This document shows positions 1,881 through 55,252 of a stretch of 58,940 nt of DNA, one piece after another. The stretch comes from Methanomicrobiales archaeon. GTDB taxonomy: Archaea; Halobacteriota; Methanomicrobia; Methanomicrobiales; JACTUA01. Every line of letters begins with the position of its first letter. The stretch's first letter is position 1. Where the stretch lies: positions 1 to 58,940 of the forward strand of contig JARYLJ010000008.1 in NCBI GenBank assembly GCA_029907705.1, read 5' to 3'. A program made the translations under genes and the position numbers. The notes below the pieces were generated by a model that ran no database searches, had not been told where the DNA came from, and saw only the letters and a list, made by a program, of their open reading frames with translations.

Positions 1881-2454
1881 TGATTGACATTCCTGTTCAG
1901 ATCATATCGGGTTAAGGTAAATTTCCTGAATAAAAAAGGACAGGGGACGTTTTTCAGACTCGGAAATCTCTCTGACTTGAATATGATCCCTCTGAGATAG
2001 TAGTGGTTTTTTTCCGGCGCATTTATTTAGGGCCATTTCATTCTCTTACACATGAAAGGGCCGTCTTCTTTCTTTTTGATGAAAAATCAGGGGCAACTCC
2101 TGGAGAGCTGGAAGATGACAGGCTGGATGAAACTGATCCGGGTCGTTCTTCTCTCAACCATACTCGTTCTGATACCGATATCTGCTTCTGCCATTATATT
2201 GCCGGAAACTGGATGCCGCTGTCCCCCATCGGCCTCGATTTCAATGGTTCATCCACCCGCACCAATCCCGATCTTCCGTATTACGGGTACCTCCAGTGCA
2301 TGTACGGGAATTATCCAATGACGCCGTATCTCGTGTCAGGCATCGGGGCAGAGTTCGACGTTAAAGTAGGCTCGAATCTCTACCCGGAGTTCCAGAGCCG
2401 GTATGGAGGGATAAATGAATTCGGCACGTTCAGCAAGGGGGCAGTCGCAGGAGG

Positions 2455-3468
2455 GTGATCCAGTTCAAAGTGGAGCCGAACCGCATCTCCCCGATATACT
2501 ACGAGAACCCAATGTACGGAAAGCCGTTCACCAATGCCTACCTCTATCATTTTTACAAGAATTCACTCATCTCCACCTTCATCATGAGTTTCGAAGAGAA
2601 CGATGCAAAGATGATCGCGATGCTCGATAACCTTGAATCCTGCGGCATGGGCATCGTGGAAGGAGGCACGGAGGTGAAGAACTGCACCGACGAGTGCACT
2701 TCGAAGGCGCCTCATCTCGTGTGGGATAGGGAGAGCGAATATCCCGAATGCAGCTGCATCTACGAGAAAGGGTACGAGATACAGGACCTCGGAACGACTG
2801 TCCGCTGCATCGCATGCACCGACATCTGCAGGCAGAAGGATCCATACTCCGTTTACAACGAGGAGGATAGCGCCCCAAACGCCTGCGAATGCGTCTGCGA
2901 AAGGGGGTTTGAACCGGCGGGTTCGGGTCTGTGCAAAAAGGTGAAATGCCCGTCCAATGCGACCAATACTGCCGATATGACCGTCTCCTGCCCCCAGGGA
3001 AGGATCATCAGCCGTAACTGCTGCTGCGACGAGGGGTTTCTTCTGTACAATGGCGAGTGTGCCGCCGCTGGATCGGCAGAATCCGATTATTTCATCCAGC
3101 CGGTGACAGCTGAGATCGCCATCGGTGAAACTGCACAATTCTCCGTCGTGGAAAAGAAGCTTGGGCGCTACAACCCGCTGGGTAACGACAGGATTCGGTG
3201 GAGCATTGCCCAGGCGAAATCCGTCAACCCCTACCTCCAGACGGCGGAGATCGGAACAATCGATGGATCGGGCCACTTCGCGGCGAAGAGTGCAGGAACG
3301 TGCACGGTCATCGCGACCCTGAGGGATCAGATCAAATTAAAGGCAGATGTGACGGTCAGGTGCCCCGATGAGAAGAAGGGAGATCTCAATCAGATTTTCC
3401 GGCTCTATATGGCAAGAATTCCCACGGGACCCATCATCCGGGATCTCGCCGCCAAGAACGTCTCCTGA
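2455..3468 (+). pseudogene. Fragment 1: Cys-rich repeats plus Ig-like (Big_2-like) domain
   Basis: This is the frame-1 portion up to the TGA at 3466-3468. The first 80 residues match nothing I know. Residues about 80-205 hold three Cys-rich EGF-like modules (CTDECTSKAP, CECVCERGFEP, CCCDEGFLLYNGEC). Residues 215-305 resemble a Big_2-type immunoglobulin-like fold (AEIAIGETAQFSV, IDGSGHFAAKSAGTCTVIA). The GTG at 2455 is only the first possible start in this frame and lies inside the reconstructed gene. The same frame continues after the stop, with only CCATTCTCATCG separating the TGA from the next ATG. Confidence 0.65.
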
Positions 3469-3480
3469 CCATTCTCATCG

Positions 3481-4380
3481 ATGAATCCCGGTCATGCGAC
3501 AAATCTGATCTCCCTGAACAATAAGGAATACGAGGGTTATGCGTGTGGTGGCTATCAGGGTATGGTGCTCAAATTCCTCCACGATATTCAGTCGAATCCA
3601 GCTGAGTGCACCCTCCTCAACGGGTATGAATTCGGCCCCATCGAGGGCTCCTATGGGGGGCATCATGCCATCGTGATATATCCCGAGGGCACCAGCTGGA
3701 AGGAGACCGGAACTGTGCTCGATCCCTGGTACCACCAGAGGCCCGAGTATATGGCCATCGGCACCTGGGAGAAGGTCTTCTCTCCAGTTACCGGTGATAC
3801 GAGTTCCAGTTATCGTCACATCTACCCTACCACCCGGGACTCCAGCGATTTTAAGAAATCCGCGTGGACGGCCGCAGAAGCCTATACGAAAGAGCTCTCC
3901 ACGCTGGGGGGGCTCATTAAGTGTCCGGTCGATCTGAGCATCGACGATGCCTCCGGAAAGAGGAAGGAGATTCGGGGCGATGGCACACCGGTGAATGAGA
4001 TCGCAGGTGGGTATCTCCTGCGTCAGGCAGATGGGGAAGGGGGGTACGAGTATTATTTCCATATCGATCAGGCCCGACCATCATCCTTCACCCTGCATAT
4101 GACGGGCCAGTCGACCGGTTCATTCGAGGTGTTGCTGTATAACCGTGGAACGAACACCTTCTCGCTTTTCGGGGCACACACGATTCGCAGAGGAGAGACC
4201 GCCACGATCTCGTTCACCCCGTCGAACCCTGCCCCTGTCCTGCAGCTTCCCGATAGAACCAGCCTCCGACCCATCCAGTTCAGCGGGTCGAATGACTTTT
4301 CCGCCCTGGTTTTCGAATCCCGGAGCCGCCCTCCCGGCACAACTGTCCAGGTTCCGCTCACCCTCGTCGATGGGAGGTAA
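3481..4380 (+). pseudogene. Fragment 2: Cys-His hydrolase-like domain and start of cohesin domain
   Basis: In the same frame as fragment 1. The sequence YACGGYQGMVL (about residue 20) and GGHHAIVIYP (about residue 60), followed by TVLDPW, give a Cys...His...Asp order like papain-fold or transglutaminase-like enzymes. This assignment rests on motif order only. A beta-rich segment follows at about 180-280. The last residues (GTTVQVPLTLVDGR) are the first strand of a cohesin-type domain, which is cut by TAA at 4378-4380 and resumes in frame as RIGNMDLVLRYNP. Confidence 0.6.
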
Positions 4381-4392
4381 AGGATCGGGAAT

Positions 4393-4869
4393 ATGGATCT
4401 CGTGCTCCGCTACAATCCGGCGGTCCTGAAGGCAAGGGAGGTTCGCAGGGGAGAACTGACGGAGAACTCCCTATTCGACTTCAATATCCAGGGAGACCGC
4501 ATACGAATCGGAATTGCCAGCAGGGATGGATTCCAGGGGGAGGGTTCTCTTGCCGAGATAAGGTTCGACGTGGTGGGAGCCGCAGGATCCATCTCTCCGC
4601 TGCGCATCGAGAGCGTGAGTGCGAACCGTGCGATTGACAGTGCAACCCTCGTCATTCCCACAGAGGGTGGTGTGCTCACTGTCATCAGCCCTGCTCAGGC
4701 CACCCGTGGCGATGCCAGTGGTGACAGGAGAGTGCGGGCTCTCGACGCACTCATCGCGCTGCAGATGGCGGTTGGAAAGCGGGCGGAGGATCTGACGCTG
4801 GATATGGATGATAACGGAAAAATCACCTCGCTGGATGCACGCCAGATCCTTAAAATGGCGGTGGAATGA
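4393..4869 (+). pseudogene. Fragment 3: rest of cohesin-like domain plus type I-like dockerin
   Basis: Residues 1-95 are the body of a cohesin-like domain (MDLVLRYNPAVLKA, then GSLAEIRFDVVG). Residues about 105-158 are a dockerin with two calcium-loop repeats. The first is GDASGDRRVRALDALIAL. The second is DMDDNGKITSLDARQIL. This is the C-terminus of the broken gene. The stop at 4867-4869 overlaps the ATG of the next gene. The piece lacks a signal peptide and could not be exported alone. It could be translated only if it starts internally or if the stop at 4378 is read through. Confidence 0.7.
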
Positions 4870-5456
4870 TGCAGATGTATGGAGCTCTGAACATGCAGGC
4901 AAAGGGAATGGTACTGGTGGTGCTCGCCATACTCCTGCTCGCAGGAGGCGCGACCGCCCTGAAGGTGAATGCGGCCGATGCCGCAGGCGCAGAGGGGAGC
5001 ACGGTGAAACTCGATCTCATGTTCGCAGGAGCGGTGAACGTGGGGAGTATGGATCTGATCCTTGCATATGATGCCGGTGTTGCGAAGGCGACCGGCGTCG
5101 AGGTCGGTCCTCTCGCGAAGAATGCATACCTCGAATACAATATCGAAAGACCAGGGGGGGTGAGGGTCGCGATCGCCGATTCGAATGGCATTGCGGGAGA
5201 CGGAGCGGTGCTCACTGTCTCATTCCTTCTCACCGGCTCCATGGGTTCGCAGTCCGGCGTATCCATTCGGGAAGCGACGGTCCATTCGCTGGAACTCGTC
5301 GAGATCGGCACGCAAACCGAAGACGGAACATTGAAGGTGTCAGCCGGTCCCGAGCCCACGAGAGCCGGTGAAGGGCTCGTAGTCCCGACGATCGCAACCG
5401 GGGCATTCTTCGCAGGCCTTCTTCTCTTCCAATGGAGGCATCGAAGATCGGGATGA
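4866..5456 (+). CDS. Membrane-anchored cohesin-domain protein
   Basis: An intact protein of about 190 residues. It has a signal peptide (MVLVVLAILLLAGGATAL), one cohesin-like domain at about residues 35-160 (GSTVKLDLMFAGAVNVGSMD through GTLKV), a short linker (AGPEPTRAGEG), and a C-terminal transmembrane helix (TIATGAFFAGLLLF) ending in a basic stop-transfer tail (QWRHRRSG). The domain is close in layout to the cohesin half of the gene just upstream. The ATG overlaps that gene's stop, indicating one transcript; ATG at 4875 is better placed relative to GGTGG at about 4859-4864. Inference: it may be the cell-surface anchor for dockerin-bearing proteins such as its neighbour. Confidence 0.75.
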   Translation: MMQMYGALNMQAKGMVLVVLAILLLAGGATALKVNAADAAGAEGSTVKLDLMFAGAVNVGSMDLILAYDAGVAKATGVEVGPLAKNAYLEYNIERPGGVRVAIADSNGIAGDGAVLTVSFLLTGSMGSQSGVSIREATVHSLELVEIGTQTEDGTLKVSAGPEPTRAGEGLVVPTIATGAFFAGLLLFQWRHRRSG

Positions 5457-5775: not shown

Positions 5776-7017
5776 GTGAGGATCGAGGAACTGACCGTCA
5801 AACAATTCAAGACCTTCAGGGAATTGAAACTTGAACTGGACCCTTACAATGTGATCATCGGCATCAATGCAGCAGGAAAATCCAATTTCATCGATATCTT
5901 TAGATTCCTGAGGGATATCGCGGCAAGGGGCATTGCGGATGCAATCTCCCTGCAGGGAGGTGTCGATTGCCTTCGGAATCTCTGCATCGCCTCCGATGAA
6001 CCGCTCTGCATCGAGATGAAGGTCGAATGCAGATCGAAGCCGCTGAGGTTCCAGCTGTGTGTAGAAGAAGCCCGCTTCATGGAGATCGAGGTGGATTCGT
6101 GGTCCTATGGCCTGAGGATACCCGTCATCCACTCGATACCGCCCCTCGAGGAGCGGGTAAGTGCGTCCTGCCGTTTCAGGAGGATACCACTGCCAGGGAA
6201 GGAGATCTCCACGGTCGAAGGCGAGATCAGCATCTCGAGGAATTCGGAAGGCGAATTGGAGTATCGGATCCTCCCGCCGGAGGCAGACGCCATTGTCAGG
6301 AGCCTTTCAGGTCAGCCGGAGCGCATATCCACGGAGAGATCCATACTGGAAGAACCCTTCTGCATCCCTTTCTTCTCGCCCCTCATTTACACCATCAGAA
6401 TCTTCTTTGCAAATATGGGGATATACGATATCGACCCGAACCTCTCGAAGAGACTTTCGCTGACGGGGCCGGTCACTCTCGAACCGGATGGCAGCAATCT
6501 TGCCATCTCGCTGCAGCACCTTCTGATGGACGAGAGAAAGAAGGAGGAGTTGCTCGTTCTCCTGAACGACATTCTTCCCTTCGTGGAGGATGTCGAGGTG
6601 AGTACGTTCCAGGGACTTTCACCCGTCGCCAGTCTCAGAGAGAGCTACTGCGGGGGGAGGTTCACACCGGCAAACCTTCTCTCGACCGGCACCGTTCATC
6701 TCACTGCGCTTCTCCTCATCCTGTACTTCGAGGACAGAGTCCCCATCGTCCTCGAAGAACCTGTTAGGAATCTCCATCCATTCCTCGCCTCCCGTATCAT
6801 GGAGATGATCAGGGATGTCTCCATCCGCCTGGAGAGGCAGGTCATTCTCACCACCCATCACCCCACCATCGTCAAGCATGCAGGCGAGCGTATACTCCTG
6901 GTCAAGAGGGATGCCCTGGGTTACTCCTGCATCATCAGACCCCACGAGCGCGATGAGGTAAGGGCTTTTCTGCAGGATCTGGGAATCGAAGATCTGTTTG
7001 TACAGAATCTCCTGTGA
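5776..7017 (+). CDS. RecF/OLD-like AAA (AAA_21-type) ATPase
   Basis: A 413-residue ATPase of the ABC/SMC-like RecF-OLD group. Features visible are: FKTF..LKLEL N-terminus; Walker A GINAAGKSN at about residues 29-37; signature-like LLSTGTVHL at about 302; Walker B plus catalytic acid IVLEEP near 327; D-loop-like NLHPFLAS; and switch His in LTTHHP at about 358. The start is GTG at 5776. It is followed after 9 bases by a TOPRIM-like gene. This pairing is typical of two-gene nuclease/ATPase defence modules (PARIS, OLD/Gabija-like) and of AAA_21-DUF4276 pairs of unknown role. The antiphage role is inference from arrangement; the ATPase family call is firm. Confidence 0.8.
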   Translation: MRIEELTVKQFKTFRELKLELDPYNVIIGINAAGKSNFIDIFRFLRDIAARGIADAISLQGGVDCLRNLCIASDEPLCIEMKVECRSKPLRFQLCVEEARFMEIEVDSWSYGLRIPVIHSIPPLEERVSASCRFRRIPLPGKEISTVEGEISISRNSEGELEYRILPPEADAIVRSLSGQPERISTERSILEEPFCIPFFSPLIYTIRIFFANMGIYDIDPNLSKRLSLTGPVTLEPDGSNLAISLQHLLMDERKKEELLVLLNDILPFVEDVEVSTFQGLSPVASLRESYCGGRFTPANLLSTGTVHLTALLLILYFEDRVPIVLEEPVRNLHPFLASRIMEMIRDVSIRLERQVILTTHHPTIVKHAGERILLVKRDALGYSCIIRPHERDEVRAFLQDLGIEDLFVQNLL

Positions 7018-7026
7018 GGTATCCGG

Positions 7027-7599
7027 ATGCCTCCACTCTATATACTCCTCGAGGGAAACGATGATGAACGCTTCTTCAACAGGGTCCTCCTTCCGTACTT
7101 CGAGGCACATGGTCACTCCGTTCACATCTGGAAGTACGCATGCGAAAAGCGAAAAACTACGATACAGTTCCTCAAATCCCTGAAATCTCAGGGGCTCGGA
7201 TTCATATTCGTGCGTGATATCGATAGCGCCCCCTCGGTCAGGGCTAAGAAGGAAGAACTCATCCGTACCTATGAGGGGCTCACGGAGGAGAGAATTGCGG
7301 TGGTCGTGATGGAGATCGAGAGCTGGTACCTGGCAGGCGCCGACAGAGAGCTGCTGAAGAGATACTGTATAAATCCTGCGTTCTTCACAAGCACCGATGC
7401 CCTGACGAAGGAGGGGTTCAACCGGCTGATCCCGCGGCGCATTCCGAGGGTCGTGTTCATGCAGGAGATACTCCGACAGTTTCATATCGGGCAGGCAAGG
7501 GAGAGGAACAGATCATTCCAGTATTTCACCGAACGGTGGATGGAATGGCGGGAGGGGCATAATCCCTGTACAACGATCTCACGCCGAGAAAAGGGGTGA
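7027..7599 (+). CDS. TOPRIM-like protein (DUF4276/DUF4435-like), partner of ATPase
   Basis: A 190-residue protein. Near the N-terminus LLEGNDDERFF supplies the first TOPRIM acidic residue. FVRDIDSAPS at about 63-72 supplies a DxD. VVMEIESWYLAG at about 96-107 resembles the conserved E.E.W/L strand of DUF4276 proteins. Length is normal for DUF4276. It sits 9 bases behind the ATPase gene and is surely co-transcribed. By analogy with OLD/PARIS it would be a metal-dependent nuclease controlled by the ATPase; that is inference, and which DUF applies is uncertain. No membrane segment or signal peptide is present. Confidence 0.65.
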   Translation: MPPLYILLEGNDDERFFNRVLLPYFEAHGHSVHIWKYACEKRKTTIQFLKSLKSQGLGFIFVRDIDSAPSVRAKKEELIRTYEGLTEERIAVVVMEIESWYLAGADRELLKRYCINPAFFTSTDALTKEGFNRLIPRRIPRVVFMQEILRQFHIGQARERNRSFQYFTERWMEWREGHNPCTTISRREKG

Positions 7600-53003: not shown

Positions 53004-53666
53004 CAGCCTGCCCTCCGGTACGAACTTCCCCGGTGGGTGTATTTACCCACCGATGGGGTTCAGAGTGGCATTCCGCACCCCATACGTGATGACGATCGAA
53101 ACGACGGCCCCGATACCTCTTCGACGAACCCATCTGCTCTGCCTGCTGGAAGAAGATTGGAGTCATATCGGTCTGGACGCTTCGAGCGCCTTTAAAACAA
53201 TAAAAAGAATTCGATTCACCGACAGACCGATGGTGCGGAGCACGTTGTCCCTCCCAGTATAAATTTCATGGGTGATGTTGAGTTCAAGCTTGATCCGGGC
53301 GTGGTTATTCACTCGATATCGAATTAAACGTTAAGTATATCCCAATTCTTTTACAGTACGGACGGCCGCGACCCGGGCCTCCGGTCCCCCTGCCCCGGCG
53401 CTCTCCTGGCCCATGCACGATCCCATTTCCGATGTTTCGCGGAGGGCAACTGCTGAAGAAATTTTCCAGACTCTCTTACCAGCAGGATCCCCCCTCTGCA
53501 TTGCAGGGGAACATCGCGAGATCCACTGCCAGGGCGATACCTTCGATCCTTCTCATTGACCGCGTCCATGATGACGAGGGTATTTCAGGAAAAGGGGATA
53601 TTCAGATACCGATTGATAGCGAGAATGGAGGTCGAATCTTTCCGTCCTTTGATGCTTTATTCGCCC
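53004..53666. other. Long spacer before the RNB gene
   Basis: About 660 bases. Apart from the palindrome at 53031-53052 and AT-rich segments (53195-53215, 53320-53350), nothing is recognised; a short minus-strand frame at 53351-53569 looks non-coding. Confidence 0.4.
53031..53052 (-). promoter_or_regulatory. Perfect palindrome over promoter of RNB gene
   Basis: CGGTGGGT (53031-53038) and ACCCACCG (53045-53052) flank GTATTT; on the minus strand the centre reads AAATAC and TAAATA, a box A candidate, and the RNB start codon is 28 bases downstream. An inverted repeat centred on a TATA box is a classic archaeal operator arrangement. Confidence 0.5.
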
Positions 53667-54263
53667 TCATTTTCCTTTCCTGAACGAGGAGACGATCTTC
53701 AGTGTCCTCTCCAGGATGCCGCGTTTCCTCACGGGGTACACGTTTTCTGAGACCTGCCTCACGTCCTCGACCGTGTAGAAGGCGTGGGGATTATGCTCCT
53801 TTATCATCCTGATGGTGTCCGGAAGAATCCTGCGGTCCACGATGGTGAAGACCATCTGAACGGGGCCTCTCGCACCGGATGCGTTCACAACGGTAAGGCC
53901 ATAGGATGCCTCCTTGAGCCTGGATATGAGCCTGGAGGCATCCTCCTTCAGTATGACCCTCACCATCACATTGCCGATGGAGAGTTTGTCCTCCAGTGTG
54001 ATGCCGACGAACGTCCCCATCGCGAAGCCGCCTGCGTATGCAAAATAGGTGGCGACGTTGTTCAGGTCCCTCATGATCTGGCCGATGGCTAGCAGCCAGA
54101 TCGAGATCTCGAAGAAACCGAGCGCAGGTGCGAGGTAACGGTACCCCCTCGAGACGAAGATCACCCTGATGGTCCCCAGACTCACATCGCATATGCGTGC
54201 GAGAAATATGAGAACCGGGAGGAGGATCCAGCGGTAGATCTCTCCGATCCCGAGCTCGAGCAT
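53667..54263 (-). CDS. UPF0316 membrane protein
   Basis: A 198-residue protein with three N-terminal membrane helices (about 12-30, 44-64, 68-90; ARICDVSLGTIRVIFVSRG between the first two is a family hallmark, as is AYAGGFAMGTFVGITLEDKL) and a C-terminal soluble DUF2179-like domain (about 95-180; SYGLTVVNASGARGPVQMVF). Function is unknown; an ion or small-molecule sensor role is speculation. It stands alone. Confidence 0.88.
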   Translation of the reverse strand: MLELGIGEIYRWILLPVLIFLARICDVSLGTIRVIFVSRGYRYLAPALGFFEISIWLLAIGQIMRDLNNVATYFAYAGGFAMGTFVGITLEDKLSIGNVMVRVILKEDASRLISRLKEASYGLTVVNASGARGPVQMVFTIVDRRILPDTIRMIKEHNPHAFYTVEDVRQVSENVYPVRKRGILERTLKIVSSFRKGK

Positions 54264-54391
54264 TGCACCTCCTCCTAAGTCAGAAATTTCGAATCTGCCG
54301 ATAAAAGGCTATGCCCTCCCTTCGATGGGATCGTTTACTGCGGGATAAAGGAGATGATGGATGAATAAACGAGCGCGGAACCAGGGGAGGA

Positions 54392-55033
54392 TCATCTGCT
54401 CTCCGCCGCCTCCACCAACCCCGTCTTCTTCTGTTCGAGGAGCGCAATCGCCCTGGATACCTCCTCCCTGACCACCGGCTCCTCGTCTTTGAGGGCTGCC
54501 TGGAGATGTTCTACCGCCCTGAAATCCCCGATCCGACCGAGTGCCCATGCTGCATTCTTTCGGACTTCCCTTTTTCTGTCCTTCAACGCCCGAACGAGCG
54601 GTTCGACTGCACGCACATCTCCGATCCTGCCCAGCGACCATGCGGCCCCCTGCCTGACCCACTTGCTCTCTGAACCGAGTGCTTCGATCAGTGCATCCAC
54701 CGCCGAGGGTTCACCGATCCTGCCGAGCGCCTGCACCGCCATCCACTGGACATCCTCGAAGGGATCCTTCAATGCCTGAATGAGGAATGGTACAGCGCGG
54801 GGATCTCTCAGCTCGCCCAGCGCTTCTGCTGCCCGCCATCGGCTGTTCAGATCCCCTTTTCTCAGATACCTGACGAGCAATCTGAAGTACTTATCCTTCT
54901 CGTCCTCTCTGTCGATCGCATCCCTTTCACCAGCGATATCGGGATCCTTCCTCTCTCCTCCATCCTTCCCGCTCATTTCCTTTGAGGTGACATTATCCTC
55001 CAACTGCAATAATTCTTTGGGCTCTCTCTCCAT
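54392..55033 (-). CDS. HEAT-repeat (PBS lyase-like) protein
   Basis: A 213-residue protein. After a charged N-terminus (1-55), about five HEAT repeats of 31 residues run to the end, each with an A.LG..RD..AV..L..AL.D pattern: SRWRAAEALGELRDPRAVPF, VQWMAVQALGRIGEPSAVDA, VRQGAAWSLGRIGDVRAVEP, VRKNAAWALGRIGDFRAVEH, VREEVSRAIALLEQ. It is probably a protein-binding scaffold; the target is unknown. Repeats are unusually alike, suggesting recent expansion. Confidence 0.88.
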   Translation of the reverse strand: MEREPKELLQLEDNVTSKEMSGKDGGERKDPDIAGERDAIDREDEKDKYFRLLVRYLRKGDLNSRWRAAEALGELRDPRAVPFLIQALKDPFEDVQWMAVQALGRIGEPSAVDALIEALGSESKWVRQGAAWSLGRIGDVRAVEPLVRALKDRKREVRKNAAWALGRIGDFRAVEHLQAALKDEEPVVREEVSRAIALLEQKKTGLVEAAESR

Positions 55034-55252
55034 TCCGGGGACATATCATAAAAAATGAAAACAAGCTCCTAAAGGGGTATTTTCTCGATTCAATACGTTC
55101 TGATGCAGCGAGGGCGGGATCTCCTCGCAACAGGTCCTTCGCATGCAGGGTTCAATCCGAATCAGAAGGGTATGACAGGAGCGTGGGTAATTAACACATA
55201 AAAGAGTGGAACGATGGCGATGGCGGCAGGAGATGCATCTCCCTCATATCCT

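Follow-up and report, generated by a model that had tools for sequence, protein, structure and literature searches.

What non-cellulosomal cohesins and dockerins do in archaea has been a standing question since their discovery in Archaeoglobus, and it is raised again by two adjacent genes, one broken and one intact, in the window analyzed here (the whole 58,940-nucleotide stretch of contig JARYLJ010000008.1 from a Methanomicrobiales archaeon). The initial annotation regarded the two products as an anchor and its ligand, and the pair as a candidate surface-assembly system outside cellulosomes. We consider it quite likely that the locus is a copy of an Archaeoglobus-type cohesin-dockerin operon, the secreted partner of which would be held by its dockerin on the cohesin of the anchor, and that this partner is now a pseudogene. 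The domains, the cohesin folds, the gene order, the conservation of the unit and the loss of the reading frame are established directly at the locus, which contains the following features:

2115..2204, plus strand: signal peptide and start of the broken partner in frame 0 (MTGWMKLIRVVLLSTILVLIPISASA, read directly)
~2195-2215, plus strand: first frameshift (codon-usage scan and stop positions)
2205..2456, plus strand: N-terminal stretch of the broken partner in frame 2 (codon-usage scan and stop positions)
~2445-2456, plus strand: second frameshift (codon-usage scan and stop positions)
~2680-3065, plus strand: Cys-rich region in frame 1, within 2455..3465, resembling L116/L119
~3090-3360, plus strand: Ig-like domain in frame 1, within 2455..3465 (Big_2 at E 0.1 only)
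3466..3468, plus strand: in-frame TGA, with a sense codon in the aligned stretch of relatives
3469..4263, plus strand: enzyme-like domain followed by a beta-rich domain (identity to L107-L113)
3544-3546, 3661-3663 and 3721-3723, plus strand: conserved Cys, His and Asp, respectively, of the enzyme-like domain
4309..4690, plus strand: embedded cohesin, interrupted by a TAA (PF00963, PDB and Foldseek)
4378..4380, plus strand: in-frame TAA inside the embedded cohesin
4705..4866, plus strand: C-terminal dockerin with two intact calcium loops (PF00404, lineage profile, alignment)
4866..5456, plus strand: membrane-anchored cohesin, open reading frame intact (PF00963, AlphaFold2, Foldseek, tree position)
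~4899-4965, plus strand: signal peptide of the anchor
4962-5339, plus strand: cohesin domain of the anchor (PF00963)
~5391-5450, plus strand: C-terminal TM helix of the anchor (hydrophobic helix)

The anchor had been described as a separate protein with a signal peptide, a cohesin-like domain and a C-terminal membrane helix, beginning in an ATGA overlap, and every part of this description was borne out. Its start at 4866 overlaps the end of the upstream gene at 4869 (ATGA at 4866-4869, by direct reading of the sequence), and translation may in fact begin at a later ATG, e.g., that at 4899. The cohesin domain scores 34.7 bits with PF00963 against a curated cut-off of 24.1 (E 2.4e-8) and belongs to that family. 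In the AlphaFold2 model, built from four alignment rows, an all-beta domain (pLDDT ~94, 92-96 per block) is flanked by helices 7-26 and 176-195, and the best Foldseek match is the A. fulgidus cohesin 2xdh (E 5e-13, 2.0 A rmsd), in agreement with the beta-sandwich fold of cohesins. In a tree of cohesins, the protein joins the anchor-type cohesins with a support of 100/99.

The secreted partner has a cohesin of its own, as the initial annotation had proposed. Scored across the one TAA, this embedded domain reaches 42.8 bits with PF00963, and its best match is again 2xdh, both among PDB sequences (E 3e-12) and in a Foldseek search with a less confident model that was folded with the TAA read through (E 1.7e-8); weaker Foldseek matches include related folds in a pilin and in adhesins. 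The C-terminal dockerin with two calcium-loop repeats was also recovered: it matches PF00404 at E 1.2e-4 in the fragment search and with 23.5 bits, against a curated cut-off of 22.9, in the whole-genome search, and a lineage profile with the window sequence among its members gives it 93 bits. Its duplicated calcium-loop/helix motif is that of Dockerin type I, and both loops, DASGDRRVRALD and DMDDNGKITSLD, keep their ligand positions in an alignment with 43 other archaeal dockerins. Structure prediction yielded a cohesin fold for the anchor and the embedded domain, whereas the dockerin part of the AlphaFold2 model has its helices at a low pLDDT of ~27-50, and the dockerin call therefore rests on sequence.

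The domain order is consistent with a simple scheme of surface attachment. The anchor would be exported and would stay membrane-bound through its C-terminal helix, exposing one type-I-like cohesin on the outside of the cell. The upstream gene would encode a secreted protein with a Cys-rich region, an Ig-like domain, a Cys-His-Asp (C-H-D) enzyme-like domain, its own cohesin and a terminal dockerin, through which it would be held at the surface by the cohesin of the anchor. Because the secreted partner has its own cohesin, chaining is possible, i.e., this cohesin could take a further dockerin protein and thus give a short chain. In the present genome, the secreted partner is predicted to be a recent pseudogene, which would leave the anchor intact and its neighboring ligand gone. 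In locus L061 (1288-3973), the imagined chain is split into separate genes for a dockerin protein, a cohesin-dockerin adaptor and a cohesin-TM anchor.

Such a pair is not a new system, because the same two-gene arrangement occurs in A. fulgidus, where binding was shown. In genome G330, which we take to be A. fulgidus, not least because its embedded cohesin differs from the 2xdh sequence at one of ~98 aligned residues, locus L156 (presumably the gene pair named AF2375/AF2376) encodes a secreted protein with a cohesin and then a dockerin, followed by an adjacent gene for a protein with a signal peptide, a cohesin and a TM helix, as in the window; the best PDB match of both window cohesins likewise comes from this species. 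The two loci differ in their cargo (PD40 beta-propeller repeats in A. fulgidus, Cys-rich, Ig-like and C-H-D parts in the window), in the PGF motif at the anchor C-terminus, which the window anchor lacks, and in the cargo gene, which is broken in the window, unlike in A. fulgidus. The A. fulgidus cohesin-dockerin pair serves as a display tool (PMC9705933), and cohesin and dockerin expansions in ANME archaea have been published (PMC9012536, PMC5244752). The proposed surface-assembly candidate is thus a genuine conserved two-gene unit, but its claim to novelty fails, and the window unit belongs to a known kind of archaeal surface-attachment module. A role in tethering functional proteins to the cell surface was similarly proposed for the non-cellulosomal cohesins and dockerins of ANME archaea (PMC9012536, PMC5244752); however, several ANME genomes encode tens of cohesins and dockerins and multi-cohesin scaffoldin-like proteins, whereas four single-cohesin proteins and two dockerins were found in the window genome.

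Cohesins were detected in 48 and dockerins in 119 of the 232 Methanomicrobiales genomes. The two-gene unit is intact, with its genes 3-4 nt apart, in JAAZNH010000005.1 (Methanomicrobiales archaeon) and JAUYTV010000037.1 (Methanoregula sp.), as well as in many genomes of other orders, and JAKLGZ010000098.1 (Methanoregula sp.) has a three-gene version composed of a dockerin protein, a cohesin-dockerin adaptor and a cohesin-TM anchor. A survey of the phylum with the anchor profile gave matches in 99 of 393 genomes, a count that takes in embedded cohesins as well as anchors. We read 25 anchor loci, window included, which were the best-scoring rather than a random set, so that the following counts describe this set only: a cohesin-dockerin ORF lies directly upstream on the same strand, with a gap of at most 31 nt or a short overlap, in 23 loci, and a small dockerin gene directly downstream in 14. 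The general layout is therefore a large secreted protein ending in cohesin and dockerin, then the anchor with signal peptide, cohesin and TM helix, and often then the small dockerin protein; the window shares the order of the first two genes with L156 and 21 further loci. The tree separates anchor cohesins from embedded ones (5 label changes, versus a mean of 22 after shuffling), and on this basis the two appear to be ancient modules that have been maintained independently. The window anchor forms a pair with a second anchor of its own genome, from contig C9 (100/94); both fall in a group from other orders (100/99), away from the Methanoregula-type anchors of the Methanomicrobiales, a placement that suggests either an exchange across orders or an ancient duplication. 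The GC content of the locus (56.4%, versus a window mean of 57.0%) shows no sign of foreign origin in base composition. Two further loci are natural fusions of neighboring operon parts: in L160 (6187-9471), one 1094-aa frame joins an anchor-type cohesin to a large protein, and in L173 (7930-9873), a single frame has both cohesin types in a row.

The relatives of the cargo indicate what docking may be for. The core of the secreted partner, i.e., the Ig-like and C-H-D domains, is 42-45% identical over ~400 aa to six intact proteins from elsewhere in the phylum (L107-L112) and 39% identical to a seventh (L113). These proteins of other methanogens (~480-620 aa) share the core with the window partner, and Cys, His and Asp are invariant in alignments of their family; however, the intact ~600-aa relatives have a C-terminal TM helix of their own (...GLPGFELWMTAFVIFVVMLFRRS in L109) and neither cohesin nor dockerin, whereas the window partner has a cohesin and a dockerin in that place and the TM helix is found on the neighboring protein. 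The region with the Cys-rich part matches another type of protein, L116/L119 (E ~1e-12 to 1e-11), which the cohesin-dockerin end also resembles and which is encoded by full genes in L120 and L121 within four-gene versions of the operon. Thus, the window partner appears to combine parts of two protein types, with the TM helix replaced by cohesin and dockerin. Since relatives of the cargo core carry their own TM helix, dockerin-cohesin docking most likely stands in for direct membrane anchoring of secreted enzyme-like proteins, a view drawn from sequence comparison. This comparison offers a testable answer to the question of function for one class of archaeal cohesins and dockerins, namely, that the pair substitutes for a membrane anchor. 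Searches of Pfam, NCBIfam and PDB with the C-H-D domain, both at the sequence and at the profile level, gave no match; the designation "papain- or transglutaminase-like" would be a reading of the conserved triad.

The reading of the locus as a decayed operon leaves an intact anchor beside a lost ligand. With Pfam and, for dockerins, an additional lineage-specific profile, four cohesins and two dockerins were detectable in the genome, which is a draft of 70 contigs. The second dockerin, of the kind that the initial annotation had suggested looking for elsewhere in the genome, is encoded at the C9 locus (L007, minus strand), where three open genes specify a cohesin protein of 436 aa that has a TM helix of its own, an anchor of 191 aa that is 45% identical to the window anchor, and a 212-aa dockerin protein whose gene overlaps that of the anchor. 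This dockerin gene, beside the second anchor, is the sole intact one in the genome; because the neighboring cargo gene is dead, the window anchor has within its own genome the C9 dockerin at most as a partner. That the window anchor is kept as a docking site for the C9 protein or for dockerins of other cells is a proposal about its present-day role, compatible with the decayed operon, to which we give somewhat less than an even chance. It agrees with the intact state of the window anchor, its clustering with the C9 anchor, and the intact ORF of the C9 dockerin, which is orthologous to the small dockerin directly following the anchors in 13 other loci. Moreover, single anchors of genus g38 coexist with 15-26 dockerins, so that anchor and ligands need not be neighbors. 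On the other hand, the C9 locus has its own anchor, and the alignment with archaeal dockerins shows that the first calcium loop of the C9 dockerin is lost.

The decayed-operon reading itself depends on the state of the upstream gene, which had been called broken and which indeed carries four lesions within 2.75 kb, two of them frameshifts and two in-frame stops. Its reading path runs from frame 0 (2115-~2205) through frame 2 (to 2456) into frame 1 (2455-4866), where codon usage favors frame 1 across ~2440-4866 and where only 2 stops occur between 2455 and the gene end, against >20 in each of the other two frames. The secreted partner thus lacks the intact reading frame of an Archaeoglobus-type operon, and because of these lesions we file the locus as a decayed member of that group. 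An upstream gene that is intact in the living organism and appears broken through assembly or sequencing errors, in a fully working pair, is an unlikely alternative, although it draws on the draft state of the assembly, on frame 1 being codon-typical across 2.4 kb, and on the intact state of the C/H/D triad and of both dockerin loops. Against it stand the four lesions, including two in-frame stops, that share a single gene, as well as the three open C9 genes and a search for in-frame stops with coding sequence on both sides, which found no clear comparable break in coding-strand genes elsewhere in the window (other matches were judged by inspection to be antisense shadows or gene ends). Because the four lesions fall in one gene, they probably reflect a pseudogene rather than random error, with a low probability of assembly error. 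The pair, having a pseudogene for its secreted partner, probably no longer works as encoded. Recoding of the stops was also considered and is not supported, as TGA and TAA occur in one gene together with two frameshifts, and relatives have sense codons in the TGA stretch. Elsewhere in the window, at 53661-55040 on the minus strand, two blocks of coding sequence that share the strand but not the frame adjoin near 54350 and could be two genes or another frameshift.

It is very improbable that the cohesins self-associate or bind non-dockerin targets, with the dockerin as a calcium-folding tail: the A. fulgidus cohesin reportedly forms reversible oligomers, and the pilin and adhesin folds among the weaker structural matches fit such a role, but several orders retain cohesin and dockerin together in a single operon. 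In addition, a published account states that specific and strong bonds of archaeal cohesin-dockerin pairs were verified (PMC9012536, citing Bayer, 1999 and Haimovitz, 2008). A cellulosome was rejected, as the genome has neither a multi-cohesin scaffoldin (each of its four cohesins is alone in its protein) nor plant-wall enzymes, and no GH or CBM domain was matched in its two dockerin proteins. The anchoring scaffoldins of Clostridia are alike in the surface-held cohesin, the dockerin-tagged secreted partner and a possible adaptor with cohesin and dockerin; however, cellulosomes have multi-cohesin scaffoldins and carbohydrate-binding and glycoside hydrolase domains, none of which was found in the window partner, and are anchored by SLH or sortase rather than by a TM helix.

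The wide distribution of the operon, its two ancient classes of cohesin and the regular third dockerin gene seem to be undescribed in the literature searched, in which few subscription papers were covered. We propose, at what we judge to be an even chance, a three-part archaeal surface cassette of cohesin-dockerin cargo, cohesin-TM anchor and small dockerin protein that is conserved across several orders, in which the two cohesin types are anciently distinct, docking replaces direct membrane anchoring, and the third, small protein, whose dockerin sits within or in front of a conserved domain, is an undescribed component capping or cross-linking the assembly.

The small dockerin protein is the regular third gene after the anchor in L120 (4111-4770), L121 (8547-9194), L007 (1796-2434) and other loci. 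In the methanogen versions, the dockerin splits a conserved domain, and in the f9 (Archaeoglobus-like) versions, it lies ahead of the whole domain. A sterol-carrier (SCP2) domain with an inserted dockerin was unconfirmed as an identity for this protein, with one weak Alkyl_sulf_C match (0.11) and no PDB support. Contig C55 of the window genome (L176, 1772-2692) encodes a 306-aa Cys-rich protein that has the C-terminal domain of the small dockerin protein without the dockerin. In another case, genomes G212-G218 of genus g38 and genome G196 have at most 1-2 detected cohesins and 15 to at least 26 dockerins each, which resembles a single membrane socket serving many secreted plugs; with 1-2 cohesins and at least 15 dockerins, the g38 genomes make the one-socket, many-plugs version testable. 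Adjoining the docking locus, the window also encodes (5776-7599) an AAA ATPase (HEC-01A-like, E 1.8e-36) and a small DUF4276-like protein (HEC-01B-like, 3.5e-6), a two-gene unit that by similarity is a candidate phage-defence pair.
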